Assembly: GCF_032925565.1 (NCBI RefSeq) | Contig: NZ_CP136708.1 | Span: forward strand, 4,154,001-4,218,000 | DNA length: 64,000 bases | Reading direction: 5' to 3' | Source of the DNA: Alteromonas sp. CI.11.F.A3 | GTDB lineage: Bacteria; Pseudomonadota; Gammaproteobacteria; Enterobacterales; Alteromonadaceae | Position numbers and translations under genes: made by a program | Shown: positions 34,832 to 53,752 of the stretch, piece by piece | How the letters are laid out: each line of letters starts with the position of its first letter | Numbering within the stretch: position 1 is the stretch's first letter | The notes under the pieces: generated by a model | What the model was told of the DNA's origin: nothing | Seen by the model: only the letters and a program-made list of their open reading frames with translations | The model's database searches: none

Positions 34832-35343
34832 AGGTAACCGCTTGAAGAGCGTTACCGCTGTTGAAAGAAAACTTACACCTACTTTATTCGACACAATGTG
34901 AACTCCTACCCCTTGTTGCATTCAAACACACCAGAGTTGGTGTAATTATAGAACGATGCTTGCTTGAAAGCCGATAAATTATCGGCGTGGCTCCATGCCA
35001 CAGAAGTAAAAAAGTGCCAGCGCTGTTAGTTATACCTTACAAACATTAATGCCATGATTGTAGATTATTCTTATGCTGGATTGGCGCTTTGCGTCAATAG
35101 TGCCCATTATACAAACACTATTATTGAAATCGAGCTTGATTTTCAATGAATGGCCACCATTTTTAACAATTGAAACACTCGTTTGAATTTTTCATTGATA
35201 TTTTGTTTAAGTTTAGTTAAAAAGCTAGCCACCCTAATGCATTAGTGTTGTGGTACGACCAGAATGTATGATTGGTTTATACGCTTATAGCGAATGGTTA
35301 GATTGCTTCACTAATATCCCGGCCAACGCCGAAGGAGATGATA
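34832..35343. other. Spacer between divergent slt and fadB
   Basis: About 510 bases without a gene. It should hold the slt and fadBA promoters. A PsrA-type box lies at 35172-35185. A short TGGC/GCCA hairpin lies near 34990. Nothing else is recognisable. Confidence 0.55.
35172..35185. promoter_or_regulatory. PsrA-type operator ahead of fadBA
   Basis: GAAACACTCGTTTG fits the inverted-repeat pattern GAAAC-N4-GTTTG of PsrA, the fatty-acid-responsive TetR repressor of beta-oxidation genes in pseudomonads and Alteromonadales. It lies about 160 bases ahead of fadB. No FadR-type site is seen. Binding is inferred from motif only. Confidence 0.5.
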
Positions 35344-37494: not shown

Positions 37495-38676
<1,182 letters not shown>

Positions 38677-38758: not shown

Positions 38759-39727
38759 CTATTTTAAAACACGGGAAAGCGGGCTAACTACCCCCTGCGC
38801 GCCCTGTTGCAATACATGCGTGTAAATTTGGGTGGTTTTCACATCAGAATGACCAAGCTGCGTTTGCACCGTGCGGATGTCGGCCCCCGACTGTAAAAGG
38901 TGAGTAGCAAACGAATGCCGTAAGGTATGCGGCGTAACCTTCTTTTTAAGCCCGCATGCATTGGCAGTATTTCTTATTGCTTTTTGTATGCTTGATTCAT
39001 CAATATGATGTCGACGCACTTTTTTATTCTCGGGATCAACCGATAAACGGGAAGAGGGAAAAAGATAATGCCAGCCTAGCTCTTTAGGCGCATTTTGATA
39101 TTTTACACGTAAACGATGAGGTAAATATACCCCCTGATAATTAGGGTTATCTAAATCAGCGATGAGGTAATTTTCAACCATACTTATTTGCCGAGTAAGC
39201 CCAGGCTTGAGCTCTGCGGCTAACGTAACAACACGATGCTTTCCACCTTTTCCATCCCAAATTCGAATAGCGTTATAATCGAAATCGATGTCTTTCACCC
39301 GTAACCGAACCGCTTCCATTAAACGCAAACCGCTTCCATACAGCAATGAAATAGGTAACTTTAAATGAGCGGGAAGTTGAGTAAAAAGCGAGACTACTTC
39401 GTCTTGCGTAAGCACAACAGGCAGCTTGGCCTGCCTGCGGCTTGCAACGAAATCAAGATTTAAAGAAAGCGGTTTTTCTAGAATGTCTCGATATAGAAAT
39501 GCCAACGCATTGAGTGCACTCGCCTGCGTGGCTGGCGCCACATTCTTTATATTCACTAAGTGAGATAGAAACAACTCTACCTCTTTATCGCCCATCTCGG
39601 CAGGATGCTTAGTATTGTGAAAGCGTATATAACTAATAATCCACCCGCTATAAAGCTGGATAGAGCGCTTGGCATAACGGCGATTTCGCATGTGTTGAAT
39701 CACCATTTGCATAAACATCGACTTCAT
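38759..39727 (-). CDS. intI: Integron integrase (tyrosine recombinase)
   Basis: 322 residues with all catalytic residues: Arg135 (GSGLRLMEAVRLR), His267 and Arg270 (TPHTLRHSFATH), His293 (LGHSDVKTT) and Tyr302 (IYTHV). The extra integron-specific segment lies at about 203-243 (LPHRLRVKYQNAPKELGWHY, DPENKKVRRHHIDE), which separates IntI from XerC/D. It has no frameshift and should be active. It excises and inserts cassettes by recombining folded single-stranded attC with attI. It is transcribed away from the array. GAGAAG precedes the ATG. Confidence 0.97.
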   Translation of the reverse strand: MKSMFMQMVIQHMRNRRYAKRSIQLYSGWIISYIRFHNTKHPAEMGDKEVELFLSHLVNIKNVAPATQASALNALAFLYRDILEKPLSLNLDFVASRRQAKLPVVLTQDEVVSLFTQLPAHLKLPISLLYGSGLRLMEAVRLRVKDIDFDYNAIRIWDGKGGKHRVVTLAAELKPGLTRQISMVENYLIADLDNPNYQGVYLPHRLRVKYQNAPKELGWHYLFPSSRLSVDPENKKVRRHHIDESSIQKAIRNTANACGLKKKVTPHTLRHSFATHLLQSGADIRTVQTQLGHSDVKTTQIYTHVLQQGAQGVVSPLSRVLK

Positions 39728-39953
39728 TTTTACTTCTCATATTTAACTGTAATTACATACAGCATTACGATTTTTTGATACGACGTAAAATAAAAAGGAA
39801 GAATTCCGTACTTAAGTACAGTGTTTTCAGATACAAAGTGTAGGATATTGATATAAGTTAACTTACGTGCGAAAGTTGAAACATTATTAGCGTGATATAT
39901 GGAAATTTTCCGCCTTGCATAAAGGATTTTTTCCGTACACTAAATTGTTATAT
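39728..39953 (+). other. attI primary recombination site with intI promoter region
   Basis: The core GTTATAT at 39947-39953 is the exact complement of the R'' box ATATAAC of the first cassette, which fixes the recombination point between 39947 and 39948. The region also holds a 12-base palindrome (GTACTTAAGTAC, 39808-39819) and the word GTGTTTTCAG at 39821, repeated at 39971 inside cassette 1. A cassette promoter must lie here but I cannot assign its -35 and -10. Confidence 0.75.
39747..39762. promoter_or_regulatory. LexA (SOS) box of intI
   Basis: CTGTAATTACATACAG matches the CTGT-N8-ACAG consensus perfectly. It starts 19 bases upstream of the intI start codon. Many integron integrases are repressed by LexA, so cassette shuffling here should rise after DNA damage. 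Confidence 0.85.
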
Positions 39954-39993
39954 TGCTAAATGAATTCAGTGTGTTTTCAGCTTTGGAGAATAA

Positions 39994-40479
39994 ATGAAAA
40001 AGGGACTTACAGATATATTTGAAGTTGATTCAGTAGCAAAGACTCTAGCCCTTTGTGTGCTTACTATTGGCGCATATTTAATATATAAGCTTTATCAATT
40101 CTCAAACAGTATTAATCAAAAGACCGAACACAGAATACCCAATGTTTTCATTGTAATAACCATTTTCTTATTCACTATATCTTTAGGTAGTTTAATTTAT
40201 GGCTTAGTTAACCTGAATGAGCCTACTATTTTAAGAAGCTCAATTGGTATTCATGTTGTCTCAAGTATTTTCGACGTTACTTGGATAATTATGGTACGTA
40301 ATCGTATTAATTTAATCGCGGGCTCTAATCGTGGTGATAAGCTTTGGTTAAACCCTTTTATTACGTCAATATTTCATGTGATTTATATGCAGTATAAAAT
40401 AAATCAAGGGTTGGCAACGTCGCAATATAACAAACAAATTATGGCAGGGACGCACAAACAACGTGCGCCCCATATTTGA
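39994..40479 (+). CDS. Cassette 1: three-helix membrane protein of unknown function
   Basis: 161 residues with membrane segments near 17-35 (LALCVLTIGAYLIYKLY), 50-72 and 82-100. TTTGGAGAATAA precedes the ATG. The last 16 codons are also attC sequence: GTHKQRAPHI is encoded by the attC arms, so the gene has run into, or evolved with, its recombination site. It is first after attI, where expression from the integron promoter should be highest. No family recognised with confidence. Confidence 0.75.
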   Translation: MKKGLTDIFEVDSVAKTLALCVLTIGAYLIYKLYQFSNSINQKTEHRIPNVFIVITIFLFTISLGSLIYGLVNLNEPTILRSSIGIHVVSSIFDVTWIIMVRNRINLIAGSNRGDKLWLNPFITSIFHVIYMQYKINQGLATSQYNKQIMAGTHKQRAPHI

Positions 40480-40488
40480 AGCGTTAGA
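40425..40488 (+). repeat. attC of cassette 1 (short, 64 bp)
   Basis: R'' ATATAAC, left arm GCAGGGACGC, right arm GTGCGCCCC, R' GTTAGAA. It lacks the long central stem of the other sites and overlaps the 3' end of the coding sequence. Confidence 0.85.
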
Positions 40489-40903
40489 AGGCGCCAGCCT
40501 AAACCTCGTTTGGCTTAATACAAATCTCAATGCAACTACCCTCACCTGCTTTCACCAACATCGCTCTGGCTTTTGGTGGTTTTAACTTCGCCGCATTGAC
40601 TTCAAAGGTCGCGCAATAGGCGATTTTCCGCCAAGTTCTTATTCTAGGCCAGCAAGCGCCATTGCGTTTACCAATTCAAATGGCGGCTTGCTTCAGCTAA
40701 ATCACCTACATCACTGCACTGGCATTTTGCTTGTTTGCTTTAGCAATCAATCGTATGCTGACTTCATTAGTTTTTAATAAAGCCAAAGGAATAGGCTCTG
40801 CTTCTAACAAAGCGCTTAAGCCTCTCCCTTCGGTCGCTGGGACGCCTATACGCGGGGCGGCTTCGCCAATTATGCCCCACGTATCTGCGCCCCTTAGCTT
40901 AAA
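40482..40903 (+). repeat. Cassette 2: gene-less family A unit, copy 1
   Basis: 422 bases from GTTAGAA to its attC. It opens with GGCGCCAGCCTAAACCTCG and carries several short hairpins, for example AGCAAGCGCCATT with AATGGCGGCTTGCT. No frame with a start and family features lies outside the attC, and short frames are not kept in copies 2 and 3. It is followed directly by two more copies. Confidence 0.9.
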
Positions 40904-40910
40904 GTTAGAA
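40802..40910 (+). repeat. attC of cassette 2
   Basis: R'' TTCTAAC and R' GTTAGAA; arms GCTGGGACGC and TCTGCGCCCC; central stem CGGGGCGGCTTCGCC. Confidence 0.92.
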
Positions 40911-41323
40911 GGCGCCAGCCTAAACCTCGTTTGACTCAATACAAATCTCAATGCAACTACCCTCACCTGCTTTCACCAGCATCGCTCTGGCTTTTGGTGG
41001 TTTTAACTTCGCCGCATTAACTTCGAAGGTCGCGCAATAGGCGCTTTACCGCCAAGTTATTGTTCTAGGCCAGCAAGCGCCATTGCATTTGGTAATTCAT
41101 AGAACGGCTTGCTTCAGCTAAATCACCTACATCACTGCACTGGCATTTTGCTTGTTTGTGTTAACAATCAATCGTATGCTGGCTTAATTAGTTTTTAATA
41201 AGACCAAAGGAACAGGCTCTGCTTCTAACAAAGCGCTTAAGCCACTCCCTCCGGTCGCTGGGACGCCTATACGCGGGGCGGCTTCGCCATTATGCCCCAC
41301 GCATCTGCGCCCCTTAGCTTAAA
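40904..41323 (+). repeat. Cassette 3: gene-less family A unit, copy 2
   Basis: 420 bases, very similar to copy 1 along its whole length including the non-attC part, with scattered substitutions. One substitution group weakens the right arm of the AGCAAGC hairpin. In-frame stops differ from copy 1, supporting a non-coding role. Confidence 0.9.
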
Positions 41324-41330
41324 GTTAGAA
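41223..41330 (+). repeat. attC of cassette 3
   Basis: R'' TTCTAAC, R' GTTAGAA, same arms and central stem as cassette 2. Confidence 0.92.
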
Positions 41331-41742
41331 GGCGTCAGCCTAAACTACGTTTGGCTTTATAAAAATATCAGTTCAATCGCCCTCACCTGCTGTTTCCAAC
41401 ATCGCCCAAGCATTGGTAGTTTTAATATCACCGCGCTTACTTTAAAGGTCGCGCAATAGGCGATTAATCGCCAAGTTCTTACTTCCTGCCAGCATGCGCC
41501 ATTGCGTTTGTTAGCTCAAAAGGCGGTTTGTTTCCTTCAAATCACCAACATCACATCGTTGGCATTTCGCTTGTTTGTGTTAACAATCAATCGTATGCTG
41601 ACTTTATTAGTTTTTAATTAGGCCAAAGGAACAGGCTCTGCTTCTAACAAAGCGCTTAAGCCTCTCCCTTCGGTCGCTGGGACGCCTATACGCGGGGCGG
41701 CTTCGCCATTATGCCCCACGCATCTGCGCCCCTTAGCTTAAA
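41324..41742 (+). repeat. Cassette 4: gene-less family A unit, copy 3
   Basis: 419 bases. The most diverged of the three, but its length and order of blocks are unchanged. It contains TGGCATTTCGC, a word also found in both family B units. Confidence 0.9.
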
Positions 41743-41749
41743 GTTATGC
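41642..41749 (+). repeat. attC of cassette 4
   Basis: R'' TTCTAAC, R' GTTATGC (start of next cassette), same arms as cassettes 2 and 3. Confidence 0.92.
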
Positions 41750-41887
41750 GGGGCTTACACTTGTATAAACCCAAAGTCATTTGGCTGGGTTTATCCTCAA
41801 TTGTAACAAGGTATTTGTATTGTCTTGAAATAACTCCTTTTTTGTTTTCTATTTGCATGTGTTGAAGTCATACTTTTAGGAAATTAT

Positions 41888-42307
41888 ATGTTCGAATGGA
41901 ATGGCGATAGAAAACAGCTTCTATCAGTGTTATGGATTTTTCTCTCAGTTAACTATATCTACTGCGACATATTTTCTCTTCACCACGCAGAGACGCTCAA
42001 AGGGTTTATTGCCGGCGAAATCGGAGGTATGAAGCTTACGGAAGAGTTTTTGCTTTCCTTTGCGTTTATCATGCAAATCCCCATGGCAATGATAGTTTTG
42101 TCACGGGTTTTGGTGTTTCGTATTAACAAGTATCTCAATATTGTTGCAGCTTTAATAACTGGCTCAATACAAAGCTACACCCTTTATATGGGCGGCACCC
42201 TTCACTATGTGTTTTTTAGTATTATAGAAATAAGTACCGCTATACTCATACTTTATCTAGCGGTCACGTGGCGCGAAGCGGATGCAGTTAAGAACCGCAC
42301 CGCATAA
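41888..42307 (+). CDS. Cassette 5: four-helix membrane protein, DUF6326-like
   Basis: 139 residues with four membrane segments. WIFLSVNYIYCDIFSLHH near the N-terminus, an Ile/Met-rich second helix and a final SIIEISTAILILYLAVTW resemble the DUF6326 family by memory. TTAGGAAATTAT precedes the ATG. A 145-base leader separates it from the cassette start. The stop codon lies inside the R'' box. Function unknown. Confidence 0.78.
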   Translation: MFEWNGDRKQLLSVLWIFLSVNYIYCDIFSLHHAETLKGFIAGEIGGMKLTEEFLLSFAFIMQIPMAMIVLSRVLVFRINKYLNIVAALITGSIQSYTLYMGGTLHYVFFSIIEISTAILILYLAVTWREADAVKNRTA

Positions 42308-42410
42308 CAAAAAAATCAAGTTCGCCCGCTGCGCGGGCTGGGACGCATACACGCAGGGCGGCTTCGCCATTATGCCCTGCGCGCCTGCGCCCCTTATTTA
42401 AAAGTTATGC
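42302..42410 (+). repeat. attC of cassette 5
   Basis: R'' GCATAAC, R' GTTATGC; arms CTGGGACGC and CTGCGCCCC; central stem with GGGCGGCTTCGCC. Confidence 0.93.
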
Positions 42411-42425
42411 CCTTCTGGAAAACGA

Positions 42426-42959
42426 ATGTCTTCGAAAAGCAATTTCATATTAATGGCTGAATACAATAAATGGATGAACGCTTCTATCTATTCTGCTGCG
42501 TCGAATTTAAGCTCAGTGGAACTTGCCAAGGATAGAGGGGCTTTCTTTGGATCTATCATCGGTACACTCAATCATATCGTGGTGGCAGATATAATTTGGC
42601 TTAAACGTTTTGCCACTCATCCCAAAGCTTTTACAGCATTAGATTCGTTAGCATCGAAGCCTAAACCTGAAAAACTAGACACACTTCTGTTCTCAGAACT
42701 CGCCCTGCTTAAACAAGAAAGGGTAAATCTGGATAATACAATCTTGAATTTTGTTAATCAGCTTTCCGAGGGCGTTTTAGCAAGTGACCTAAACTATCAA
42801 AATATGGGAGGCGTCTCGTATTCAAAATGCTTCGCACATCTATTGCTGCATTTCTTTAATCATCAAACTCATCATCGTGGACAGGTGTCTACACTGTTGT
42901 CACAACTTGGTGTAGATTTAGGCGTCACGGATTTGCTAGTTAAAATACCCAATGCGTAA
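42426..42959 (+). CDS. Cassette 6: DinB-family protein
   Basis: 177 residues with the four-helix DinB fold. Metal-binding histidines are in IGTLNHIVVADIIWL and FFNHQTHHRGQV. DinB-like proteins act as metal-dependent thiol transferases or hydrolases, but the substrate here is unknown. The start lies only 22 bases into the cassette. Confidence 0.88.
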   Translation: MSSKSNFILMAEYNKWMNASIYSAASNLSSVELAKDRGAFFGSIIGTLNHIVVADIIWLKRFATHPKAFTALDSLASKPKPEKLDTLLFSELALLKQERVNLDNTILNFVNQLSEGVLASDLNYQNMGGVSYSKCFAHLLLHFFNHQTHHRGQVSTLLSQLGVDLGVTDLLVKIPNA

Positions 42960-42962
42960 AGG

Positions 42963-43070
42963 GCATAACAAAAAAATTAAGTCACTCACTTCGTTCGCTG
43001 GGACGCAAACACGCGGGGCGGCTTCGCCATTATGCCCCACATGTCTGCGCCCCTTATTTAAAAGTTAGGC
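42963..43070 (+). repeat. attC of cassette 6
   Basis: R'' GCATAAC, R' GTTAGGC; arms CTGGGACGC and CTGCGCCCC. Confidence 0.93.
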
Positions 43071-43480
43071 GTCATTTACTAACAGCATTAAAAAGTAAGT
43101 TCAGCAGTGACATTTCAGCATCAAGGTTGTTTCACTAGGTTGTCTTCGTGGCTAGCTTTCTCAGTTGTTTAAATGACTTTAGCAACGCGGATTTTATCAA
43201 CACAGCAACGCCAACAGTCAACACTACAAGTTGTCTAAACTCGCTCTTTTATCCAGCAATGTCCTTAACATCTGGCATTTCGCACAGGGTTGTTTTATCT
43301 TAATTTCAATAATTTAAATAAGTGGCCTTATCGGCTAGTGGTGGCAGCAAAGCTGCGTACTTTCCTTTGTACGCCTAACAAAACGCTGTTGGCACTCCCT
43401 TCGGTCGCTGGGACGCTAACACGTGGGCTGGCTCGCTTCGCTCGGATTTTAGCCCACGTGCTAGCGCCCCAAAGCTTAGC
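43064..43480 (+). repeat. Cassette 7: gene-less family B unit, copy 1
   Basis: 417 bases from GTTAGGC. No credible gene; the open frame from 43290 runs through the attC into the next gene. It contains TGGCATTTCGCACAGGGTTG, an AT-rich stretch near 43300-43320 that could hold a promoter, and two stems just before R'': GCAGC/GCTGC and GCGTAC/GTACGC. Confidence 0.88.
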
Positions 43481-43487
43481 GTTATGC
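43373..43487 (+). repeat. attC of cassette 7
   Basis: R'' GCCTAAC, R' GTTATGC; arms GCTGGGACGC and CTAGCGCCCC; longer central stem with GGCTCGCTTCGCTC. Confidence 0.92.
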
Positions 43488-43502
43488 GATAAGGATATCG
43501 AT

Positions 43503-44003
43503 TTGAATTTTTTGGTAGTTATAGCAAGCTCTAGGTCTGATGGTAATACTGCAAAGTTATCCCATGTTATTGCAGATAGTCTTCAAGCCCAGACCGTTGA
43601 TCTTCAAAAGTTATCAATTTCATATTTTGATTACGAAAATCGCAATAAATCTGATGACTTTATTCCGTTAATTGAACGCATAGTGTCATCAGACTTTGTT
43701 GTATTCGCTACGCCTGTATACTGGTATTCCATGTCGGCACAGATGAAAACCTTCTTTGACCGTATTACTGATTTGCTAACAGTAAACAGAGAACTAGGGC
43801 GAAAGCTGCGGGGTATGCCAATATCGGTAGTTGCTACAGGTACAGATGCGGAATTGCCTTCTAGTTTCAAAAGCCAATTCGAGCTAATCTCTGGCTACCT
43901 AGGGCTGGTCTATCACGAACCTCTCTATTGTTGCTGTCCGGATGAATTCAGCCTTCAGCAACACCAGCAGGCAATCCAAGGTTATCTTAACAAAATCGCA
44001 TAA
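43503..44003 (+). CDS. Cassette 8: flavodoxin-fold NADPH-dependent FMN reductase
   Basis: 166 residues. The flavin phosphate loop is SSRSDGNTAKL and the isoalloxazine-side loop is TPVYWYSMSAQMKTFFDRI, as in the NADPH-dependent FMN reductase/flavodoxin family. Two cysteines precede CPDEF near the C-terminus. The start is a TTG at 43503 with AAGGA 7 bases upstream; the frame extends into the previous cassette but not as a gene. The stop is inside R''. Confidence 0.87.
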   Translation: MNFLVVIASSRSDGNTAKLSHVIADSLQAQTVDLQKLSISYFDYENRNKSDDFIPLIERIVSSDFVVFATPVYWYSMSAQMKTFFDRITDLLTVNRELGRKLRGMPISVVATGTDAELPSSFKSQFELISGYLGLVYHEPLYCCCPDEFSLQQHQQAIQGYLNKIA

Positions 44004-44113
44004 CAAACTGCTGTAGTCGCTCGCGGGCTCGCTGGGACGCAAACACATGGGCTGCGTCGCTTCGCTCCTAAATTTTAGCCCATGTGTCTCCGCCCCTAAG
44101 CAGGGCGTTAGGC
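43998..44113 (+). repeat. attC of cassette 8
   Basis: R'' GCATAAC, R' GTTAGGC; arms CTGGGACGC and CTCCGCCCC. Confidence 0.92.
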
Positions 44114-44511
44114 GTCATTTACTTACAGCTTAAAAAAGGGGGTCAATCGTGACATTCCAGCATAAAGGCTGTTTCACTAGGTTGTCTTTGCGGCTAGCTT
44201 TTCGGTAGTTTCAACGGCTTTAGCAACGCGCTTTTCATCAACACCGCAACGCCAACATTCAACATCACTAGCTTTCTAAACTCGCTCATTTATCCAGCAA
44301 TGTCGTTAACATCTGGCATTTCGCACAGGGTTGTTTTATCTTAAATTTAATAATTTAAACATGCGGTCTAATTGGCTAGTGGTGGCAGCAGAGCTGCGTA
44401 CTTTCAGTTGTACGCCTAACAAAACGCTGTTGGCACTCCCTTCGGTCGCTGGGACGCTAACACGGGGCCGCTTCGCGATTATAGCCCCATGTTAGCGCCC
44501 CAAAGCTTAAA
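44107..44511 (+). repeat. Cassette 9: gene-less family B unit, copy 2
   Basis: 405 bases, collinear with cassette 7 (TTTCACTAGGTTGTCTT, CATCTGGCATTTCGCACAGG, GCGTAC/GTACGC) with many substitutions. It is not adjacent to copy 1; the flavin reductase cassette lies between. No gene. Confidence 0.9.
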
Positions 44512-44518
44512 GTTAGGT
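44414..44518 (+). repeat. attC of cassette 9
   Basis: R'' GCCTAAC, R' GTTAGGT; arms GCTGGGACGC and TTAGCGCCCC. Confidence 0.92.
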
Positions 44519-44523
44519 GATAA

Positions 44524-44856
44524 GTGGAGAGTCTAAGAACAAGCCTTTTTTTATGTGGCGCTTTCTCTTATTTGTATTTTTTATATAAATACGTCAATGC
44601 ACTCGACCTAGTTTGCAAAGAGTTGAAGTCGCAAGACAATTTAAAGGTTTTTGGTATAACGGTAGAGCCGACAAAGTTAATTTTACTTGCAACTCCCAAG
44701 CTGACTGCTACGTTGATAAGTCGCTCGTATATGAAAGGTCGTCAAAGTGATTCGAGTTTTGTGTGCGCTCATAATTTGGCAAGAAAATACTTTTTAGCTA
44801 TGGCTTTCTCTGCGCTTTCTTCGTTTTTATTGGTAGTTTTGCTCAAGGATGTTTGA
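44524..44856 (+). CDS. Cassette 10: small membrane protein
   Basis: 110 residues starting at GTG. Hydrophobic segments near 5-24 and 90-107 with a basic cytoplasmic-like middle. No recognised family. No strong ribosome site, so the start is tentative. It begins 12 bases into the cassette. Confidence 0.65.
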   Translation: MESLRTSLFLCGAFSYLYFLYKYVNALDLVCKELKSQDNLKVFGITVEPTKLILLATPKLTATLISRSYMKGRQSDSSFVCAHNLARKYFLAMAFSALSSFLLVVLLKDV

Positions 44857-44872
44857 GATGTCACCTAACAAC

Positions 44873-44970
44873 TCAATAAACTCGCTCACTACGTTCGCTG
44901 GGACGCATACACGCAGGGCGGCTTCGCCATTATGCCCCACGCGCCTGCGCCCGTTATTGAAAAGTTATAT
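44873..44970 (+). repeat. attC of cassette 10
   Basis: R'' ACCTAAC, R' GTTATAT; arms CTGGGACGC and CTGCGCCCG. Confidence 0.92.
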
Positions 44971-44985
44971 TTTTCAAGGAAGACA

Positions 44986-45360
44986 ATGAGATCAACGCTT
45001 TTATTAGTCATCGTTTTTTCTGTTCAAGCGTATGCATCAAGAGTTATTGACGCCACGAGTCTTACTACCAACCTAGCTGATAATTTAGGTTTTGATGTCA
45101 TAAAAACTAAGGATAAATTTGGTTTAACTATTGAGCTGAAAGGTCCTAGTGAACTCGATGGTTCTTGTAAGCCTCTTGCGGCTGGTCATTTTGTTATTAA
45201 AAATGACGAAGAAGTATCAGCTTTTATTGGTAGTGCTCACCCCAGTGAACCCCAATCTACTAGTTTTATTGCCGACGCAAATAACACTGAGTTGGTTGCT
45301 TTTATTGATTACCAGTGTGAAAGCACGTCCAAAAGGTATACTGTTTCTAGTAATGAATAA
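44986..45360 (+). CDS. Cassette 11: secreted small protein
   Basis: 124 residues. A signal peptide (MRSTLLLVIVFSVQAYA) precedes a beta-rich mature part with two cysteines (DGSCKPLAAG and DYQCES) that could form a disulfide. The ATG at 44986 has CAAGGAAG upstream; the frame from 44932 lies in the preceding attC. No family recognised. Probably periplasmic. Confidence 0.72.
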   Translation: MRSTLLLVIVFSVQAYASRVIDATSLTTNLADNLGFDVIKTKDKFGLTIELKGPSELDGSCKPLAAGHFVIKNDEEVSAFIGSAHPSEPQSTSFIADANNTELVAFIDYQCESTSKRYTVSSNE

Positions 45361-45366
45361 GCACAA

Positions 45367-45474
45367 ATATAACAACTCAATAAACTCGCTCACTACGTTC
45401 ACTGGGACGCATACACGCAGGGCGGCTTCGCCATTATGCCCTACGTGCCTGCGCCCGTTATTGAAAAGTTAGGT
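45367..45474 (+). repeat. attC of cassette 11
   Basis: R'' ATATAAC, R' GTTAGGT; arms CTGGGACGC and CTGCGCCCG. Close to the attC of cassette 10. Confidence 0.92.
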
Positions 45475-45480
45475 GCTTCA

Positions 45481-45846
45481 ATGGCATTCAAACCACCTTT
45501 CCATGAACAAATACTAGAACTCGCTTTGACTATGACCAACGAGCCTTCAACAAAAGTTTACTGGGAAGCACATAATAAGCTTAGAGTCATTTGCGAAACT
45601 CACAAGAACTCAGCTCTAGATCACCCGTTTCAGTGGGAAACTCTTGCTGACTTCACTGTGGATAGTGAAGTGAAATTAGCTGTGTATTTAAAGGCTCTTG
45701 AATTAGCGCAAAAGTACAACCTGCTTTCATACGTTGTATCGGTTGCTACAGAGATCTCGGAATTATACTTGGAGCAAAATGACAATGACCATGCAATGAT
45801 TTATTCTAAAATCGCAAAGACTGCCACTCTACAGATGGAAGTATAA
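45481..45846 (+). CDS. Cassette 12: helical-repeat protein of unknown function
   Basis: 121 residues, cytoplasmic, mostly helix with a TPR-like end (VVSVATEISELYLEQNDNDHAMIYSKIAKTA in part). The ATG at 45481 is 13 bases into the cassette; upstream frame is attC. No catalytic motif is seen. Confidence 0.7.
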   Translation: MAFKPPFHEQILELALTMTNEPSTKVYWEAHNKLRVICETHKNSALDHPFQWETLADFTVDSEVKLAVYLKALELAQKYNLLSYVVSVATEISELYLEQNDNDHAMIYSKIAKTATLQMEV

Positions 45847-45876
45847 AAAGTTGATTAAAGGTTGGTTTAGGCACGC

Positions 45877-45984
45877 ACCTAACAAAAAAATCAAGTCACT
45901 CACTTCGTTCGCTGGGACGCATACATGAGGGGCGGCTTCGCCATTATGCCCCACATGCCTGCGCCCCTTATTTAAAAGTTAAAT
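45877..45984 (+). repeat. attC of cassette 12
   Basis: R'' ACCTAAC, R' GTTAAAT; arms CTGGGACGC and CTGCGCCCC. Confidence 0.92.
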
Positions 45985-46435
45985 GCCTATGAGTATCAGA
46001 ACAACACTTTTAATTTTTTTCTGTTTGTTTAGCTCGAAAATAATTGCGAACGGTTGTGAAAGTTCAGTTGCTACGAAAGACTTCACATCAATTCTTTCAA
46101 ACTGTGTCACAAAGAATGATCCGAACCAACGCAACCAACTGGCGATTTTGCAGAAGAATGTAATTCACCAATTTGGTTCGTTGGATAGCAAGCCAGAGTT
46201 TATTCAAAGTTTGTATGAGCAAGCCAAACAAGGAAATAAACGAGCTCAGCATACTTATGGACTTATTTGTTATTTTTTCTACACGCCAACATATCAGGAA
46301 TGGAAAGGTATACCACCAAATACAAGCTTTACCGCAAATAATACCGAGTATCGTCAATTCCAATTAGAAAGAGAAAGTATTTCAAATGAATGCAAGGAAT
46401 GGATCACGAAGTCAGGTCTTCAAACAAAATGGTAA
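45983..46435 (+). CDS. Cassette 13: secreted protein of unknown function
   Basis: 150 residues. Signal peptide (MSIRTTLLIFFCLFSSKIIA) then a mature part with several cysteines (NGCESS, NCVTKND, NECKEW) and SLYEQAKQGNKRAQHTYGLICYF, reminiscent of a Sel1-like helix pair. The start at 45983 or 45989 lies inside or next to the R' core, so the gene has almost no leader of its own. Confidence 0.7.
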   Translation: MPMSIRTTLLIFFCLFSSKIIANGCESSVATKDFTSILSNCVTKNDPNQRNQLAILQKNVIHQFGSLDSKPEFIQSLYEQAKQGNKRAQHTYGLICYFFYTPTYQEWKGIPPNTSFTANNTEYRQFQLERESISNECKEWITKSGLQTKW

Positions 46436-46453
46436 AGGATGTTTTAAGAAGGC

Positions 46454-46558
46454 ATTTAACAAGGCGCTTAACTCGTTCCCTTCGGTCACTGGGACACAAA
46501 CACGCGGCGGCTTCGCCATTTTCGCCGCATGTTTGCGCCCGTTAGCTTAGCGTTAGGT
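46454..46558 (+). repeat. attC of cassette 13
   Basis: R'' ATTTAAC, R' GTTAGGT; arms CTGGGACAC and TTGCGCCCG. Confidence 0.9.
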
Positions 46559-46576
46559 GCTTCAGGGTAGGCTCTA

Positions 46577-46951
46577 TTGATTTCAGTTTTCTTAATCTCT
46601 TTAGCTATTTGGGTTGTCTTTTTTCTAATAGCAGCCAAGGTCAATAAACGGCTCTCGACATTGGGGAACGTATTATTTTATTTAGCCTCTTTTGTCTTAT
46701 TTATACTTTATGGCTACTATTTTGAAGCATCGGAATATGGCAGGGTGAATAGGCAACGTGAACTTATTATCACACTAGTAATTGTTTATTCATTGCCAAT
46801 TTTTATTACTGGTTGCATTGTCAAGCTCGTGGACCGACACTGCAGCAGTCTTAGTTATTTCATAGGTGCTGTCTTGGCTGCATTAATCAGTTTGGTTTGG
46901 CCGTTTTTCTCTTTGGTTACATCGTGCGAAATTGGCTCAGACTGCATTTAG
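46577..46951 (+). CDS. Cassette 14: four-helix membrane protein
   Basis: 124 residues, TTG start with GGTAGG upstream. Four hydrophobic segments (SVFLISLAIWVVFFLIAA, VLFYLASFVLFILYGYYF, LIITLVIVYSLPIFITGC, LSYFIGAVLAALISLVW). No family recognised. Confidence 0.68.
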   Translation: MISVFLISLAIWVVFFLIAAKVNKRLSTLGNVLFYLASFVLFILYGYYFEASEYGRVNRQRELIITLVIVYSLPIFITGCIVKLVDRHCSSLSYFIGAVLAALISLVWPFFSLVTSCEIGSDCI

Positions 46952-46991
46952 TATTTCTAGACTCTCTGATACGGAGGCTTAATCAGTACGC

Positions 46992-47108
46992 ACCTAACAA
47001 ACAACTGTAGCCGTTCGCTGGCGCTCACTGGGACAATAACAAGCAGGCTCAGTCGCTCCGCTCCAAGTTTAGCCTGCGTGTTATTGCCCCTAAGTTGGGC
47101 GGTTAGTT
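46992..47108 (+). repeat. attC of cassette 14
   Basis: R'' ACCTAAC, R' GTTAGTT; arms CACTGGGACAAT and TATTGCCCC. The arms differ from the main group, as in cassettes 16 and 20. Confidence 0.88.
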
Positions 47109-47125
47109 GCCTAGGGAGATTGTCT

Positions 47126-47512
47126 TTGATACCGGAGTATTGGAAAAATTTCATCATTAAAAATGAATTAGTGGGCGAATACTGTGAAATTCCAGAATCC
47201 GCTGATTTGTCAGAGTTAGATGGTGGTAACCTTAAGCTACTCGATGAATATCAAATTCTAAATGAGGCTAACGAGTTTTATCCTGGAATCGCAGTAAAGA
47301 AATTTGGGTACATTCCTGTTGCTAGTTGCTCACTAGGTTCCGGTGATCCATATTTCATAAACATAAATGATGGCGTTAATGGAAACTTGTATAGAATTTA
47401 TCACGATGCTGAAATGATTGATGATGAATCTTACAATATGGATGAAGCCGCTAATGTAGTACTAGCTGATTACGCAGATTTACTGAAATACCTCTGCAAA
47501 AACGGCAACTAA
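47126..47512 (+). CDS. Cassette 15: SMI1/KNR4 (SUKH)-like protein
   Basis: 128 residues, start TTG at 47126 with AGGGAG 7 bases upstream. LSELDGGNLKLLDEYQILN, a hydrophobic-glycine-aspartate pattern (ASCSLGSGDPYFININ) and a final helix (NVVLADYADLLKYL) fit the SUKH fold, which often serves as immunity protein against nuclease toxins or contact-dependent toxins. No toxin is adjacent, so it may be an orphan immunity gene. Its stop is inside R''. Confidence 0.7.
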   Translation: MIPEYWKNFIIKNELVGEYCEIPESADLSELDGGNLKLLDEYQILNEANEFYPGIAVKKFGYIPVASCSLGSGDPYFININDGVNGNLYRIYHDAEMIDDESYNMDEAANVVLADYADLLKYLCKNGN

Positions 47513-47603
47513 CAAACGCCTCAACAAAGGACGCAAGATGCTTGGCTTGCGTCACTTCGTTCCTAATTTTAGCCAAGCATCTTGCGCCTGTTAGGCGGGC
47601 GTT
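47507..47603 (+). repeat. attC of cassette 15, interrupted in R' by an IS
   Basis: R'' AACTAAC, left part AAGGACGCAAGATGC, right part GCATCTTGCGCC, then GGCGGGCGTT where the insertion begins. The remainder of R' (ATGC or TATGC) lies at about 49225-49229 on the far side of the element. Confidence 0.85.
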
Positions 47604-47689
47604 GGTATGACTCCCCTTGTCAATAAAAACCGAGTGTCTCCCTGACATTTTTTCGGTCCATAATTAGCTGTGTTCTTACTCATATTAAA

Positions 47690-47937
47690 TGAGCTAACGC
47701 ACCGGATGAGGCAGTAATGTCGTCGGTTGTCATGGCGAGTGTCGCCCCAGTGGTATTAATGGATTATTCACCTTTCAGTGAACAGCGCCTACCTTACTCA
47801 CTCCGCCGTATCCCGGTGACCGCTCAGCCTTTCTCATCAGTCTATGCTCGTGGGTCAATAACCGTTAAGTTATTGCCATCATAACGCCCTCGTAGGTTGT
47901 GCCACATTCCGCGGCCTGATCCGAATGCGTTAGCTCA
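47690..47937 (-). ncRNA. Candidate bridge/seek RNA of the IS
   Basis: The non-coding part 3' of the transposase is where IS1111-group elements encode their guide RNA. It is bounded by a perfect 12-base inverted repeat (TGAGCTAACGCA at 47690, TGCGTTAGCTCA at 47926). CATAACGCCC at 47880-47889 is the reverse complement of GGGCGTTATG, the rebuilt target junction. GTGTC (47739) and GGTAT (47752) repeat the sequences of the two element ends. Limits of the RNA and its folds are not determined. Confidence 0.5.
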
Positions 47938-47947
47938 AACTCGCTTA

Positions 47948-49102
47948 TCATGCAGGTACTCTGCTCAATCTCAATTTTGGATTAACTGGCGTAAGCACCA
48001 CTTCTTTAGCGATAGCCCATATGTAGGCTGCCATCTCTCTGGCTATTGCGGTGATAATGAGATTGTAATACTTACCTTTTTTACTCATTCGCTGGTAGCG
48101 TTTGCACAGACGAAGCTGTGCTTTCCACGCAATATCGACGATGTCTTTGGGTAGCCCTTCTTGGCGAATTTGAATATCCGTCGAGATATTGGCTGGATAG
48201 CGATAACTATGTGCGCCCTCAATGAGTAAGCGCCTAGCTCTACCATTCCCACATTTGGTTATTGCGCCTAAGTGCCGTTTTCCACCAGAGGAATGTTCGC
48301 TGGGTACCAAGCCTAAATAAGCCATGAGCTTTCTAGGATGGTCGAAGCGGTGTAAATCTCCAAGTTCAGCAACAACCCCAACCGCCACTAGCAGCCTCAC
48401 ACCACGCATGGCTTGGATCGCTTTAACGACAGGATAATAACGCCACTGGTGTACATGATGGGTTAGCTCATTATCCAGCCTTTCTAAGCGGCGGATCCGC
48501 TCTTCAATAGTCTGCAACTGTTCCTGCAATACGATTTGCTGCGCCGGATGAGGTAATATCAGTTCAGTCAGCCACCGCAGATGTTTCTTCGACCAATTAG
48601 CAGTGCCTTCATACCGAATATTGTTTCTCAGCAGCAGCGCTTTGAGTTGGTATTTGGCTTCTTTTAAATCTTTCATCGCAAGCTCTCGAGCGCGGGATAA
48701 ATCTCTTACCGCTCCATCTTCAGGCTCAGGAACATAGATAGGTGTAAGATCTTCCGACTTTAGTAACTTCACTAATTTAAGTGCATCACGGCGGTCAGTC
48801 TTAATCCGTTCACCAGGCTTTTTGGGTATAAGGGACGGCGCTACAACATAGCAACAATGCCCTAAACTTGTGATAAGTCGGTAGATCCAATATCCACATG
48901 GCCCTGCTTCATACACCACATGAATTGTCGCGCCCGGATACTTCGATTCAAACTGACGGATAAGCTTTTTGACGCTGACTTTTGAAGAAGGAATGCGGCC
49001 ATAGTGCACCGCACTTACTCCACGCTGCTCTTCACAATAAGCTACTTCGTGAAATTCTTTGTGAGTATCTAATCCTAAAAAAACTATGCTATGTTTGTTC
49101 AT
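47948..49102 (-). CDS. IS110-family transposase (DEDD)
   Basis: 384 residues. The RuvC-like DEDD residues are visible: Asp in FLGLDTHKE, Glu in VVYEAGPCGYW, and both Asp in KTDRRDALKL. The C-terminal Tnp20 domain has AYLGLVPSEHSSGGKRHLGAITKCGNGRARRLL in two parts, including the conserved serine block. The ATG at 49102 has GGAGG 5 bases upstream and is preferred over 49114. The frame is intact, so the element may be active. Confidence 0.93.
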   Translation of the reverse strand: MNKHSIVFLGLDTHKEFHEVAYCEEQRGVSAVHYGRIPSSKVSVKKLIRQFESKYPGATIHVVYEAGPCGYWIYRLITSLGHCCYVVAPSLIPKKPGERIKTDRRDALKLVKLLKSEDLTPIYVPEPEDGAVRDLSRARELAMKDLKEAKYQLKALLLRNNIRYEGTANWSKKHLRWLTELILPHPAQQIVLQEQLQTIEERIRRLERLDNELTHHVHQWRYYPVVKAIQAMRGVRLLVAVGVVAELGDLHRFDHPRKLMAYLGLVPSEHSSGGKRHLGAITKCGNGRARRLLIEGAHSYRYPANISTDIQIRQEGLPKDIVDIAWKAQLRLCKRYQRMSKKGKYYNLIITAIAREMAAYIWAIAKEVVLTPVNPKLRLSRVPA

Positions 49103-49247
49103 GCTAGCCTCCAAATGATTTAGTCTTAAGCAAACTAATAATGGACTCCGGCCGGCGCTCCGGTGGCTGAAAAGTTAACCCACGAAAATGCGGAGGCTAG
49201 CATTTCTCAGGGAGTCATTGTGTCTATGCACCTAGGAGACATCGATA

Positions 49248-49634
49248 GTGATTTCACACATTACGTTAGGAACTAACGATCTCAATAAAGCTATTGGGTT
49301 TTATGACCAAATTCTCGGTCTAATCGCTGCAAAACAAGTAGCAAAAACCGAAGACGTTGTGTTTTATGCATTTCCAGGCTCTGATACAAAGTTATCCATT
49401 ACTAAACCACACAATGAAAACCCTGCGACATTCGGTAATGGAACCATGTTGGCACTCAAAGTTAACAGTAATGAACTTGTTAAAGAGATCTATCAGTTAG
49501 CAATCAGCCTAGGCTCGATTAGCGAAGGAAAGCCTGGCCCGCGAAATGATAATGCTTATTTTGCTTCTTACATTCGGGATTTGGATAATAATAAAATCGC
49601 GGTTTTTCATAGAGATGACAGTATAAGTGCATAA
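49248..49634 (+). CDS. Cassette 16: VOC/glyoxalase-fold protein
   Basis: 128 residues, GTG start after AGGAG. ISHITLGTNDLNKAIGFYDQILGL opens the first beta-alpha-beta-beta-beta unit, and NAYFASYIRDLDNNKIAVFHR closes the second with the usual D-x-x-N-K. The first-strand His and late Glu/His ligands of metallo-glyoxalases are only partly kept. Substrate unknown; relatives include glyoxalase I and fosfomycin-modifying enzymes. The cassette leader is split by the IS. Confidence 0.85.
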   Translation: MISHITLGTNDLNKAIGFYDQILGLIAAKQVAKTEDVVFYAFPGSDTKLSITKPHNENPATFGNGTMLALKVNSNELVKEIYQLAISLGSISEGKPGPRNDNAYFASYIRDLDNNKIAVFHRDDSISA

Positions 49635-49733
49635 CAAACGCATAAACACTCGCTTCGCTCGCGGGGGACAAATACACGTAGGCACCCCTCGCTCTGCTCG
49701 GTATTTTAGCCTACGTATATTTGCCCGTTATGT
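49629..49733 (+). repeat. attC of cassette 16
   Basis: R'' GCATAAC, R' GTTATGT; arms GGGGGACAAATA and TATTTGCCC. R'' predicts that the cassette began with GTTATGC, now split by the IS. Confidence 0.9.
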
Positions 49734-49749
49734 GCCAAAAGGAATTTGA

Positions 49750-50187
49750 ATGCGCAAGAATAGTCAACTAATAATCGCTGGCAGTTTAAGCATCTTGGCT
49801 GCATTACTTCATATTAGTTGTATTTTCGGCGGTCCTGACTGGTATCTCTTTTTTGGTGCTGGTCAACGAATGGCTCAGCTCGCTGCTCAGGGCGACCCGT
49901 ATCCCACAATTGCCACTTTGGTTATTGCTTCAATTCTTACCGGCTGGGGCTTATATGCTTTTTCTGGTGCAGGCATCATCGTTAAATTACCACTACTAAA
50001 AACCTGTTTAGCGTTAATCACTGCCATCTATTTGTTGCGTGGCATCGCAGGTTTAGTTGGTCCATTTCTAACCTCAGACCCTGTGGTACATCAAAATTCA
50101 ATAACATTTTGGTTAGTAAGCTCAATTGTATGCTGTATTTATGGTACGTTTTATTTATTGGGCACAGTAAAGTTATGGCGGCAGTAG
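49750..50187 (+). CDS. Cassette 17: four-helix membrane protein
   Basis: 145 residues. Four membrane segments: IIAGSLSILAALLHISCIF, IATLVIASILTGWGLYAF, TCLALITAIYLLRGIAGLV, SSIVCCIYGTFYLLG. AHRLH-type small integral proteins are frequent in cassettes; no family is assigned. AAAAGGAATTTGA precedes the ATG. Confidence 0.75.
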   Translation: MRKNSQLIIAGSLSILAALLHISCIFGGPDWYLFFGAGQRMAQLAAQGDPYPTIATLVIASILTGWGLYAFSGAGIIVKLPLLKTCLALITAIYLLRGIAGLVGPFLTSDPVVHQNSITFWLVSSIVCCIYGTFYLLGTVKLWRQ

Positions 50188-50200
50188 AAAGTGTGCTGGC

Positions 50201-50308
50201 ACATAACAAAAAAATTAAGTCACTCACTTCGTTCGCTGGGACGCATACATGCGGGGCGGCTTCGCCATTATGCCCCACATGCCTGCGCCCCTTATTTAAA
50301 AGTTATGC
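50201..50308 (+). repeat. attC of cassette 17
   Basis: R'' ACATAAC, R' GTTATGC; arms CTGGGACGC and CTGCGCCCC. Confidence 0.92.
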
Positions 50309-50359
50309 GCTCAAAAAATTACGCTAGCAATCCGTAACCCCTGAGGTTACAATGGAACC

Positions 50360-50638
50360 ATGATTAAGAGTTTTATACATAAAGGCCTTCAGAAGTTTTA
50401 CGCTAAAGGAACCACTTCAGGAATTCAGAAAAAGCACGAAAAAAAGCTTCGTCTTATTCTGTCGAATCTCGATCAAGCCGAAACACCTGATGACATGGAT
50501 TTACCCGGCCTTCATATGCACAAACTCAAAGGTAACAGAAATGATATTTGGTCTGTCCGGGTAAGTGGAAACTGGAGAGTTACATACCGCTTTGTTGGAC
50601 GAGATGTTGAAATCGTTAATTACGAGGATTATCACTAA
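50360..50638 (+). CDS. higB: Cassette 18: HigB-type toxin (RelE/ParE superfamily)
   Basis: 92 residues. The HigB-like core is DMDLPGLHMHKLKGNRNDIWSVRVSGNWRVTYRF, and the end is IVNYEDYH. Toxins of this family cleave mRNA in the ribosome. The stop shares one base with the antitoxin ATG, so the pair is co-translated, toxin first, as in higBA. A 58-base leader could hold its own promoter, usual for cassette toxin-antitoxin pairs. Confidence 0.92.
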   Translation: MIKSFIHKGLQKFYAKGTTSGIQKKHEKKLRLILSNLDQAETPDDMDLPGLHMHKLKGNRNDIWSVRVSGNWRVTYRFVGRDVEIVNYEDYH

Positions 50639-50934
50639 TGAATATGCATAACCCTGCGCACCCCGGTGAGATACTCAAAGATCTTGTTATTGATGCTCTA
50701 GAACTGACCATTACTGACGTAGCGCAACATTTAGATGTGAGCCGTAAAACATTATCGAAAGTTCTTAATGGTAAAGGGGCTATCACCCCAGAGATGGCTC
50801 TTCGTCTTGAACTCGTTTTCGGTAAGCCGTCTGCGGCCCATTGGCTTCGTTTGCAAAATGCTTTTGATTTGTGGCAAACAAGACAACATCAAAGCTCTTT
50901 GCATGTCTCACCGTATAATATGGCTGCGGTGTAA
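50638..50934 (+). CDS. higA: Cassette 18: HigA-type antitoxin
   Basis: 98 residues. HPGEILKDLVIDALELTITDVAQHLDVSRKTLSKVLNGKGAITPEMALRLE (in parts) is the XRE helix-turn-helix of HigA. It should neutralise the toxin and repress the pair. Confidence 0.93.
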   Translation: MNMHNPAHPGEILKDLVIDALELTITDVAQHLDVSRKTLSKVLNGKGAITPEMALRLELVFGKPSAAHWLRLQNAFDLWQTRQHQSSLHVSPYNMAAV

Positions 50935-50939
50935 AACGC

Positions 50940-50990
50940 GCATAACAAAAAAATCAAGTTCGCCCGCTGCGCGGGCTGGGACGCAAACAT
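50940..50990 (+). repeat. Truncated attC of cassette 18 (left half)
   Basis: R'' GCATAAC and left arm GCTGGGACGCAAACAT are intact, then the sequence switches to the inside of a second higB at ACATAAGG. Right arm and R' are missing. Confidence 0.88.
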
Positions 50991-51248
50991 AAGGGTCTGA
51001 AACTCTTTTTCGAAAAAGGGAAAACCTCAGGCATACAAACTAAGCATGCGAAAAAGCTTCGTATGCAGTTAGCAGCTATTCATACCGCACAAGATATTGA
51101 TGACATTAATCTACCTGGTTTTTCTCTCCATCAACTCAAGGGAGAAAGATCTAACATTTGGTCAATATCAGTAAACGGTAATTGGAGAGTAACTTTCGAG
51201 TTCACGGATGGTAATGCTTACATCTTAAATTACGAGGATTATCACTAA
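50988..51248 (+). pseudogene. 5'-truncated higB toxin gene
   Basis: Homology to the upstream HigB begins at HKGL (codon 7 or so) and continues to NYEDYH without a frameshift. The start codon, first six residues, leader and promoter are gone. An internal ATG at 51063 would give 61 residues lacking the first helices. It is probably inactive. Confidence 0.8.
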
Positions 51249-51541
51249 TGAATATGCATAACCCACCACATCCAGGTGAATTTATTGAGTCCATTTACAT
51301 GGAGCCACATGGTATAAGTTGCAGATCACTAGCTACCCATCTTGGTGTTGCAGCTTCAACACTAAATCGTGTTGTAAAGGGCAAAAGTGCAGTAACGCCA
51401 GAAATGGCCTTAAGGCTATCAAAAGTATTGGGGCGCAGCCCTGAAAGTTGGCTTAGCATGCAAGACAATTATGAGCTTTGGCAAGCGAAAAAGAAAATTA
51501 ACTTGGATAATGTAGAGCCAATAGATCTGCATGCAGCCTAA
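51248..51541 (+). CDS. higA: Cassette 19: HigA-type antitoxin
   Basis: 97 residues, same start MNMHNPPHPGEF as the first HigA and the same HTH layout (CRSLATHLGVAASTLNRVVKGKSAVTPEMALRL in parts), then diverged. It is intact although its toxin is truncated and its own promoter is lost, so expression would depend on read-through from the upstream higBA. It overlaps the toxin remnant by one base. Confidence 0.9.
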   Translation: MNMHNPPHPGEFIESIYMEPHGISCRSLATHLGVAASTLNRVVKGKSAVTPEMALRLSKVLGRSPESWLSMQDNYELWQAKKKINLDNVEPIDLHAA

Positions 51542-51650
51542 CAAAAAAATTAAGCTCGCCCGCTGCGCGGCCTGGGACGCAAACATGTGGCTGTTTCGCT
51601 TCGCTCAGATTTTAGCCCACATGCCTGCGCCCCTTATCTAGAAGTTATAT
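51536..51650 (+). repeat. attC of cassette 19
   Basis: R'' GCCTAAC, R' GTTATAT; arms CTGGGACGC and CTGCGCCCC. R'' predicts a lost cassette start GTTAGGC. Confidence 0.92.
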
Positions 51651-51665
51651 TCAAAAAGGAATTTT

Positions 51666-52004
51666 ATGAAATCTTTATTTTTTACACTTTCTATTTTACT
51701 TATTGCTGGCTGCGCCAGTGTAGATGAAAACTTGGTATTGAATGGAAAGTCTGCTGCTTCACTCGAAAACGATATAAACACCATCGTAGAATCTCTACCA
51801 AACAGGAAAAAACATGAGTTCATGATTGCTCTGCTATCTATACAGATGGATGTAACTCAAAGCCCATTGGCTTTTTTGGGTAACCCAGATGGCAACGCCG
51901 TAAATTACGAATTACTATCCCAGCACTTAGATGGCCTAAATTACAAGCAGGTGCTAGAGCTTGCATCTAAATCAAAAGCTTCGGTCGAAGTCTTAACAAA
52001 TTGA
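51666..52004 (+). CDS. Cassette 20: small lipoprotein, DUF6694-like
   Basis: 112 residues. Lipobox LIAGC, then SAASLENDINTIVESLPNRKKHEFMIALLSI and HLDGLNYKQVLELA, a pattern that resembles the DUF6694 lipoproteins by memory. AAAAGGAATTTT precedes the ATG. Envelope location is likely, function unknown. Confidence 0.78.
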   Translation: MKSLFFTLSILLIAGCASVDENLVLNGKSAASLENDINTIVESLPNRKKHEFMIALLSIQMDVTQSPLAFLGNPDGNAVNYELLSQHLDGLNYKQVLELASKSKASVEVLTN

Positions 52005-52110
52005 ATATAACAACTCAATCAACACTCTCACTACGTTCGCTGGGACAAAAATACGTAGGCTCTCAGCGCTTCGCTTGGTAATGTAACCAAAATATATTTG
52101 CCCGTTGTGT
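52005..52110 (+). repeat. attC of cassette 20
   Basis: R'' ATATAAC, R' GTTGTGT; arms GCTGGGACAAAAATA and TATATTTGCCC. The last complete attC of the array. Confidence 0.85.
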
Positions 52111-53673: not shown

Positions 53674-53704
53674 ACTTAATACCCCATGTATTTGTGCCCG
53701 TGAG
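53674..53704 (+). repeat. Degenerate right half of an attC
   Basis: TACCCCATGTATTTGTGCCCG resembles the right arm of the TATTTGCCC-type sites (cassettes 14, 16, 20) but has no left half and no clear R'. Confidence 0.5.
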
Positions 53705-53752
53705 TAGATGGCTATTTGCCAATACTTTTATATATTCAAACAAGGATGCTTC

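Follow-up and report, generated by a model that had tools for sequence, protein, structure and literature searches.

A sedentary chromosomal integron beside fadA in Alteromonas, with two families of gene-less cassettes and an insertion sequence placed in attC sites

Does the row of small genes that follows fadA in Alteromonas sp. CI.11.F.A3 still exchange its members, and what might be the role of those members that carry no gene? Both questions concern a stretch of 64,000 nucleotides (here called the window; contig NZ_CP136708.1, positions 4,154,001 to 4,218,000), which is part of a 4.66-Mb single-contig chromosome whose assignment to Alteromonas was judged from its relatives. A preliminary description of this DNA had proposed a large chromosomal integron with 20 base-precise cassettes next to fadA. 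In this study we find an intact integrase, an attI region and a correctly bounded array of attC sites at this locus, and we are highly confident that it is a sedentary chromosomal integron of Alteromonas with cassette turnover. This confidence does not extend to the function of two families of gene-less cassettes, F1 and F2, which is discussed separately.

Integrase, attI and the cassette array

The gene fadA (37513-38676, plus strand; NF006510 and TIGR02445 above cut-off) is the conserved chromosomal neighbour of intI, which lies on the minus strand at 38759-39727 and encodes an intact integron integrase of 322 amino acids. The protein reaches 459.9 bits against TIGR02249 (cut-off 265) and its reading frame is open throughout, so that the integrase is complete, as had been proposed. 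It stays below the cut-offs of the XerC and XerD models, which separates it from other tyrosine recombinases, and its residues 2-320 align almost end to end with Vibrio IntI4 (2a3v). Among the 80 relatives that we kept for locus comparison, fadA and intI are adjacent in 19 (L008-L025 and L037). At E<=1e-100 an integrase match was present in 55 of 59 genomes of the genus. Identity is at least 80% in 23 of those 55 genomes, the window's own included; the remaining 32 reach 53-61% identity in their best match, which represents a clearly different integron integrase.

Upstream of intI a LexA/SOS-box-like CTG-N10-CAG is found at 39747-39762. The motif is present upstream of intI here and in all 18 relatives examined, compared with a background of 10 in 799 80-nt tiles of the window. 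It is what one would expect for LexA/SOS control of intI, and we infer such control. The attI region (39728-39947) adjoins intI and ends at the junction G39947, the first base of cassette 1; the preliminary description had also named an attI junction. In 19 sequences the region shows 342 substitutions and only 3 indels. With cassettes inserted next to it, it served as an example of a functional non-coding stretch with which F1 and F2 could be compared.

Reading the cassette boundaries directly from the DNA, we found 20 GTT sites that mark boundaries, the first at 39947 and the last at 52104, with 19 intervals between them. The interval 50302-51644 holds two fused cassettes, so the count of 20 cassettes stands once this pair is counted as two; the array runs to 52110. 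For 17 of the 19 intervals the first seven bases, once reverse-complemented, give exactly the R'' box; these are 17 of 17 intact cassettes, which agrees with the earlier claim for every intact cassette. Under random assignment the full 17/17 match has a probability of 7.3e-12. A permutation control reached a maximum of 9 matches in 20000 permutations (mean 2.5), and pairing each R'' box with the start of the next cassette gave 3. The two exceptions to the rule are explained by an inserted insertion sequence (IS) and by the cassette fusion. In cassette 16 the IS has inserted after the GTT, and this GTT together with the bases beyond the IS fits the R'' box GCATAAC. In the fused pair the first partner starts with GTTATGC, which agrees with GCATAAC at 50940; the start of the second partner has been lost. 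The rule is the expected trace of cassettes that existed as circles, and it supports the view that the array is correctly bounded.

A covariance search for attC, which the preliminary description had suggested as a check, was carried out with a model (R1) built from 15 attC of the array. On the window R1 gave 18 attC on the minus strand at E <= 2.3e-10, so the integron stands this check; three attC held out of the training were recovered with E values of 1.1e-16, 3.9e-14 and 2.3e-10. The truncated attC of the fused pair was matched at E 0.035, and the other 11 matches were weaker, on the plus strand and over the same sites. All 30 matches of the window search at E <= 10 fall inside the array, with nothing outside it. 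The array had been described as a one-way row of small genes, each ending in a near-identical attC. The single orientation is correct, but the attC are only similar (mean column identity 67%) and five of the 20 cassettes are gene-free. Folded as DNA, 15 of 16 attC gave z values of -1.84 to -6.06 relative to shuffles. Two sites count against the integron reading: R1 missed the 65-bp attC of cassette 1, and for the last attC folding is not stronger than in shuffled sequence (z -0.56). As a whole, the attC nevertheless form a real array in one orientation with a foldable R''/L''...L'/R' structure. The attC of cassette 1 (40425-40489) is unlike the others and was perhaps captured from a different integron lineage. 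Past the last cassette, 53676-53705 resembles by eye the right half of a decayed attC, although R1 gives no match there. Small open reading frames (ORFs) also lie beyond the last cassette, at 52164 and 53708, and this might be an eroded array end.

Two families of gene-less cassettes

The five cassettes without a gene, all in plus orientation, fall into two families: cassettes 2, 3 and 4 (40483-40903, 40904-41323 and 41324-41742) belong to F1, cassettes 7 and 9 (43064-43480 and 44107-44511) to F2. The genome holds seven full-length copies of F1, three in the window array and four in a distant array, L096. In the genus, F1 is matched in 23 of 59 genomes, and five F1-bearing genomes (G412, G413, G414, G426 and G430) have only the more distant integrase at E<=1e-100. 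Some match to F2 occurs in 39 of 59 genomes, many of them short, and at least 305 of 309 bases are covered in 21 of 59. Plasmids of Alteromonas macleodii also carry F1 (two records) and F2 (one record). One further genome contains four F1 and four F2 copies within ~5 kb (G426:C1:1152909-1157985), ~3 kb from its own integron integrase; gene-less cassettes can therefore form much of an array. A diverged relative of F2 at L017:1518-1757 is possibly a third gene-less family.

Among the loci examined outside Alteromonas, which included eleven from Vibrio, the best match to F1 had E 0.23 and the best to F2 E 0.011 (L066, Rheinheimera). An origin of F1 in Vibrio, which was also considered, gained no support from these loci; a motif search of the eleven from Vibrio gave none. 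The core pattern of F1 was found in 2 of 369 genomes of the class, both Alteromonas, in a set with few genomes per family. A search for F1 across the order gave 4 of 394 genomes, all Alteromonas, with only two candidates scored per genome. A literature search over open-access titles and the starts of abstracts found no earlier work on F1 or F2 in Alteromonas.

We aligned 53 distinct copies of F1 and 34 of F2 from the retrieved loci, which is fewer than all copies matched; one 255-nt copy of F2 was removed before alignment, and gap columns were removed before substitutions were counted. The reverse-complement rule that links the R'' box to the first seven bases holds in 45/53 copies of F1 and 33/35 of F2, which identifies them as true cassettes. 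Length is nearly fixed, with exactly 319 nt in 39/53 copies of F1 and 309 nt in 27/35 of F2. By parsimony, F1 has accumulated 1010 substitutions and 15 indels (67 per indel; ratio 0.015) and F2 569 and 7 (81 per indel; ratio 0.012), on trees that ignore recombination between copies. Intergenic controls of the genus gave 65/6, 142/56 and 139/134 substitutions/indels (ratios 0.092, 0.394 and 0.964). Gap columns were left out here as well, and in one set also terminal gapped columns; in the second and third control the alignment contains many gaps, so that indels may be overstated. A further control, 34921-35338, had too few sequences. Neither family shows a codon-position signal (p 0.91 for F1 and 0.98 for F2), and five ORFs of F1 and F2 searched against Pfam gave no match. 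We read this as selection that seems to act on F1 and F2 as non-coding sequence. Some observations count against our overall explanation. The R'' box disagrees with the first seven bases in 8/53 copies of F1 (one base each) and in 2/35 of F2. The longest stretch that is stop-free in at least 95% of copies, 28 codons in F1, reaches 54 codons in F2; of the 34 F2 copies, however, no more than 6 have a start codon there that gives at least 40 amino acids. A former gene may have left this stretch behind.

What could such cassettes do? By analogy with Vibrio, we rank portable promoters first, as the most likely function, and structured RNA second. A weak promoter-like pair, TTGT[TC]T-N17-TAT[GT]CT, is present on the sense strand of 53/53 copies of F1; TTGTTT-N17-TTTAAA occurs in 31/34 copies of F2, and TTTAAA-N17-TACGAT on the opposite strand in 28/53 of F1. 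All three patterns are only suggestive. Against a promoter function, a scan of 39700-45000 gave 4 promoter-like sites, compared with 10.5 (sd 3.9) in shuffles. Promoters in gene-less cassettes are not identifiable in silico, according to a section heading of PMC11014356.

It is possible, though doubtful, that F1 and perhaps F2 encode a structured RNA, with any promoter activity being secondary. In 53 copies of F1 there is a conserved stem, located in cassette 2 at 40612-40666 (arms 40612-40625 and 40654-40666). It is the one helix that stands out among helices of at least 5 pairs: its covariation sum is 0.78 on the minus strand, where the next helix reaches 0.07, and 0.62 on the plus strand, where the next reaches 0.02. 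The fold energy of F1, computed from 30 of the 53 copies, was lower than in any of 60 column shuffles, whichever strand was folded. The changes lie in the outer half (columns 130-135 with 179-184), where A-U becomes U-A in 18/53 copies and C-G becomes U-A in 5/53. The inner half (137-143 with 172-178) is nearly invariant, a point against the RNA reading. Single column pairs outside helices score similarly (0.41 vs 0.44), hence the support for the stem comes from its stacked pairs together. With respect to the strand, the wobble evidence is contradictory: cells in columns 130-143 favour the minus strand by 23 to 0, 18 of them from one column pair, whereas the pair 129-185 favours the plus strand by 30 to 0. 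A bottom-strand structure was considered for the stem and dropped once the 30 plus-strand cells of pair 129-185 were counted. In F2 we found no comparable covarying helix in the alignment, and its folding was weak, with 3 and 11 of 60 shuffles equally good; both count against the RNA reading. Also against an RNA, Rfam gave nothing at the gathering threshold over the whole window. A sub-threshold microRNA match in 40480-44520 (E 0.069, 24 bits vs 90) was judged to be chance.

Alternatively, F1 and F2 could be decayed protein genes that are carried along without function. Some gene-less cassettes of Vibrio are described as decayed genes in passages of PMC11014356, and the 54-codon stop-free stretch of F2 would fit. 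We regard this as unlikely, since the indel ratios of both families are far below those of the intergenic controls, invariant blocks and the covarying F1 stem have been retained, and neither a codon-position signal nor a Pfam match in the five ORFs points to a former protein.

A further possibility, somewhat less likely than not, is that F1 and F2 are independent non-coding elements, either selfish or regulatory. Such elements would be free of genes, held at nearly fixed length by selection, present in many copies per genome and spread across plasmids and across Alteromonas genomes whose integron integrases clearly differ; F1 would act through its stem-loop, either as RNA or as single-stranded DNA. 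The two families make it possible to test whether gene-less cassettes are debris or working parts, and they supply dozens of natural variants, conserved and variable positions, a compensatory stem and varied neighbourhoods.

Turnover, further arrays and an insertion sequence

Comparing strains at this locus was the second check suggested in the preliminary description, and the result speaks against a fixed gene block. When the stretch 39947-47500 (7.5 kb) was compared with the same-species genome G435 at E <= 1e-60, only F1 and F2 were found and none of the ten coding cassettes tested. Cassette 5 is present in another genome of the genus, G437, with 100% identity over 666 bases. There ~1.9 kb without a match at E <= 1e-60 separates the cassette from the nearest F1, whereas in the window it stands directly after F1. 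Both are draft assemblies (about 80 contigs for G435, about 180 for G437), and missing sequence could inflate the difference. We take the differing content of the arrays, as judged from these sequences, to indicate turnover. The array is thus chromosomal and at a fixed locus, with cassettes that vary (by comparison with the draft G435), as is characteristic of sedentary chromosomal integrons. A fixed island of genes in tandem that no longer exchanges cassettes is a highly improbable alternative. It draws on the fact that in 19 relatives the integrase neighbours a housekeeping gene that is conserved, but has against it the circle trace in all 17 intact cassettes, the intact integrase and the different content of the one same-species genome examined (a draft).

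Elsewhere in the chromosome R1 detected three further attC arrays with 34, 9 and 5 sites (L096, L098 and L099; E<=1e-5, plus strand). The genome has seven Phage_integrase matches, all of them outside these three stretches. The arrays agree with the definition of CALIN, attC clusters without an integrase nearby. The largest, L096 (G000:C1:2163000-2182999), contains its 34 attC and the four copies of F1 ~2 Mb away from the integrase. These arrays, the IS and the fused pair had no mention in the preliminary description.

The IS1111-type element occupies 47604-49225 on the minus strand, give or take one base at its ends, and interrupts the R' box where cassettes 15 and 16 meet. Its transposase (47948-49114, minus strand) is of the IS110 family (NF033542, 274.5 bits), and a long non-coding part downstream of the transposase gene corresponds to the IS1111 layout. 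The genome has three copies, all three in attC arrays, in one orientation and between GTT and ATRY of the R' box. This fixed attC position and single orientation agree with the IS1111-attC group, on which PMC11187229 lists Tetu and Holmes (2008) and Post and Hall (2009) among its references. A candidate seekRNA guide, GGGCGTTAT (47881-47889, minus strand), equals the target. It occurs once in the non-coding part of the IS and is identical to the target of two copies, with one mismatch to the target of the third. In relatives of the element GGCGTT is kept in 20 of 20 aligned rows (19 distinct elements, the window element being counted twice). The left flank ends in GCGTT in 18 of the 20 and in GTGTT in another, and in the last row it breaks off at gtt; the target site is confirmed as attC for the three copies of this genome only. 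Of 196 genomes of the family that were searched, 43 have DNA matches to the IS at E<=1e-10. In the seekRNA model, as presented in passages of PMC11187229, ISKpn4 is a member that targets attC. The match between guide and target fits this model, and the predicted RNA would probably act as the guide.

From these elements a possible course of events can be proposed. DNA damage probably switches IntI on, and IntI would then recombine attI with the attC of cassette circles, folded from their bottom strand, building the one-way array at the fadA locus. Cassettes would be gained and lost between strains and would also reside in the integrase-free arrays of the same chromosome. F1 and F2 would be kept as non-coding functional units, most likely serving neighbouring cassettes as portable promoters or regulatory RNA. 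Insertion of the IS at GTT|AT in the R' boxes of attC probably depends on an RNA that derives from the element's non-coding tail.

The coding cassettes are all in plus orientation. Cassette 1 (39947-40482) encodes a small protein whose match to DUF4234 stays below the cut-off, cassette 5 (41743-42403) a DUF6326 protein (41888-42307; Pfam 211 bits), cassette 6 (42404-43063) a DinB-family protein (42426-42959) and cassette 8 (43481-44106) an NADPH-dependent FMN reductase-like protein (43503-44003). Cassettes 10-15 (44512-47600, with starts at 44512, 44964, 45468, 45978, 46552 and 47102) contain one protein each of unassigned function, with no Pfam match at E<=0.01 and no PADLOC match. Cassette 16 (49226-49726, its first GTT at 47601-47603) encodes a glyoxalase-superfamily protein (49248-49634) and cassette 17 (49727-50301) a protein of unassigned function. 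The fused pair consists of cassette 18 (50302-50989, right limit approximate), with a HigB-HigA pair and a shortened attC from 50940, and cassette 19 (50990-51643), which has lost its start and holds HigA and a HigB without its beginning. Across the fusion (50940-51100), the first attC is shortened and the second HigB is 5'-incomplete, while the second HigA is complete. Cassette 20 (51644-52110) encodes a DUF6694 protein and ends in the last attC (52005-52110). A defence gene was considered among ten proteins of the region; the sole match, a short one to Cas12a (E 0.0035), was judged to be chance.

Comparison with known systems

What the preliminary description had rated as striking is real but ordinary for the genus: an Alteromonas integron, fGI2, was published in 2014 together with two further attC regions (PMC4119200, in the passages available). 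Like fGI2, the present system combines an integrase-bearing array with integrase-free attC arrays; its cassettes are specific to the strain, many genes are of unassigned function, and both toxin-antitoxin pairs and IS elements occur. The text of that paper does not mention fadA, and the passages available describe neither gene-less families nor an IS target. The integron itself, being already known for the genus, adds one well-bounded example; less expected are the conserved gene-less families and the attC-aimed IS.

Similar to the superintegron of Vibrio cholerae and its IntI4, the locus has an integrase that aligns almost end to end and a one-way array of small cassettes. It differs from V. 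cholerae N16961, for which a passage of PMC11551772 gives 179 cassettes, in having 20. The IS shares with the IS1111-attC group and ISKpn4 a DEDD transposase of the IS110/IS1111 kind, a long non-coding region behind the gene, insertion in attC and a target sequence inside the non-coding region, as far as passages of PMC11187229 describe them; unlike that of ISKpn4, the seekRNA of the window element is a prediction from sequence. The element offers a natural case of an IS, of a kind that is RNA-guided, whose targets are the joints of gene-capture arrays and whose candidate guide can be read. Finally, F1 and F2 resemble the gene-less promoter cassettes of Vibrio, reported in 2024 (PMC11014356, in the passages available), as cassettes without a gene inside integron arrays. 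In contrast to these, the Alteromonas cassettes, characterized from their sequences, form two multi-copy, genus-wide families of near-fixed length, one of them with a conserved stem.

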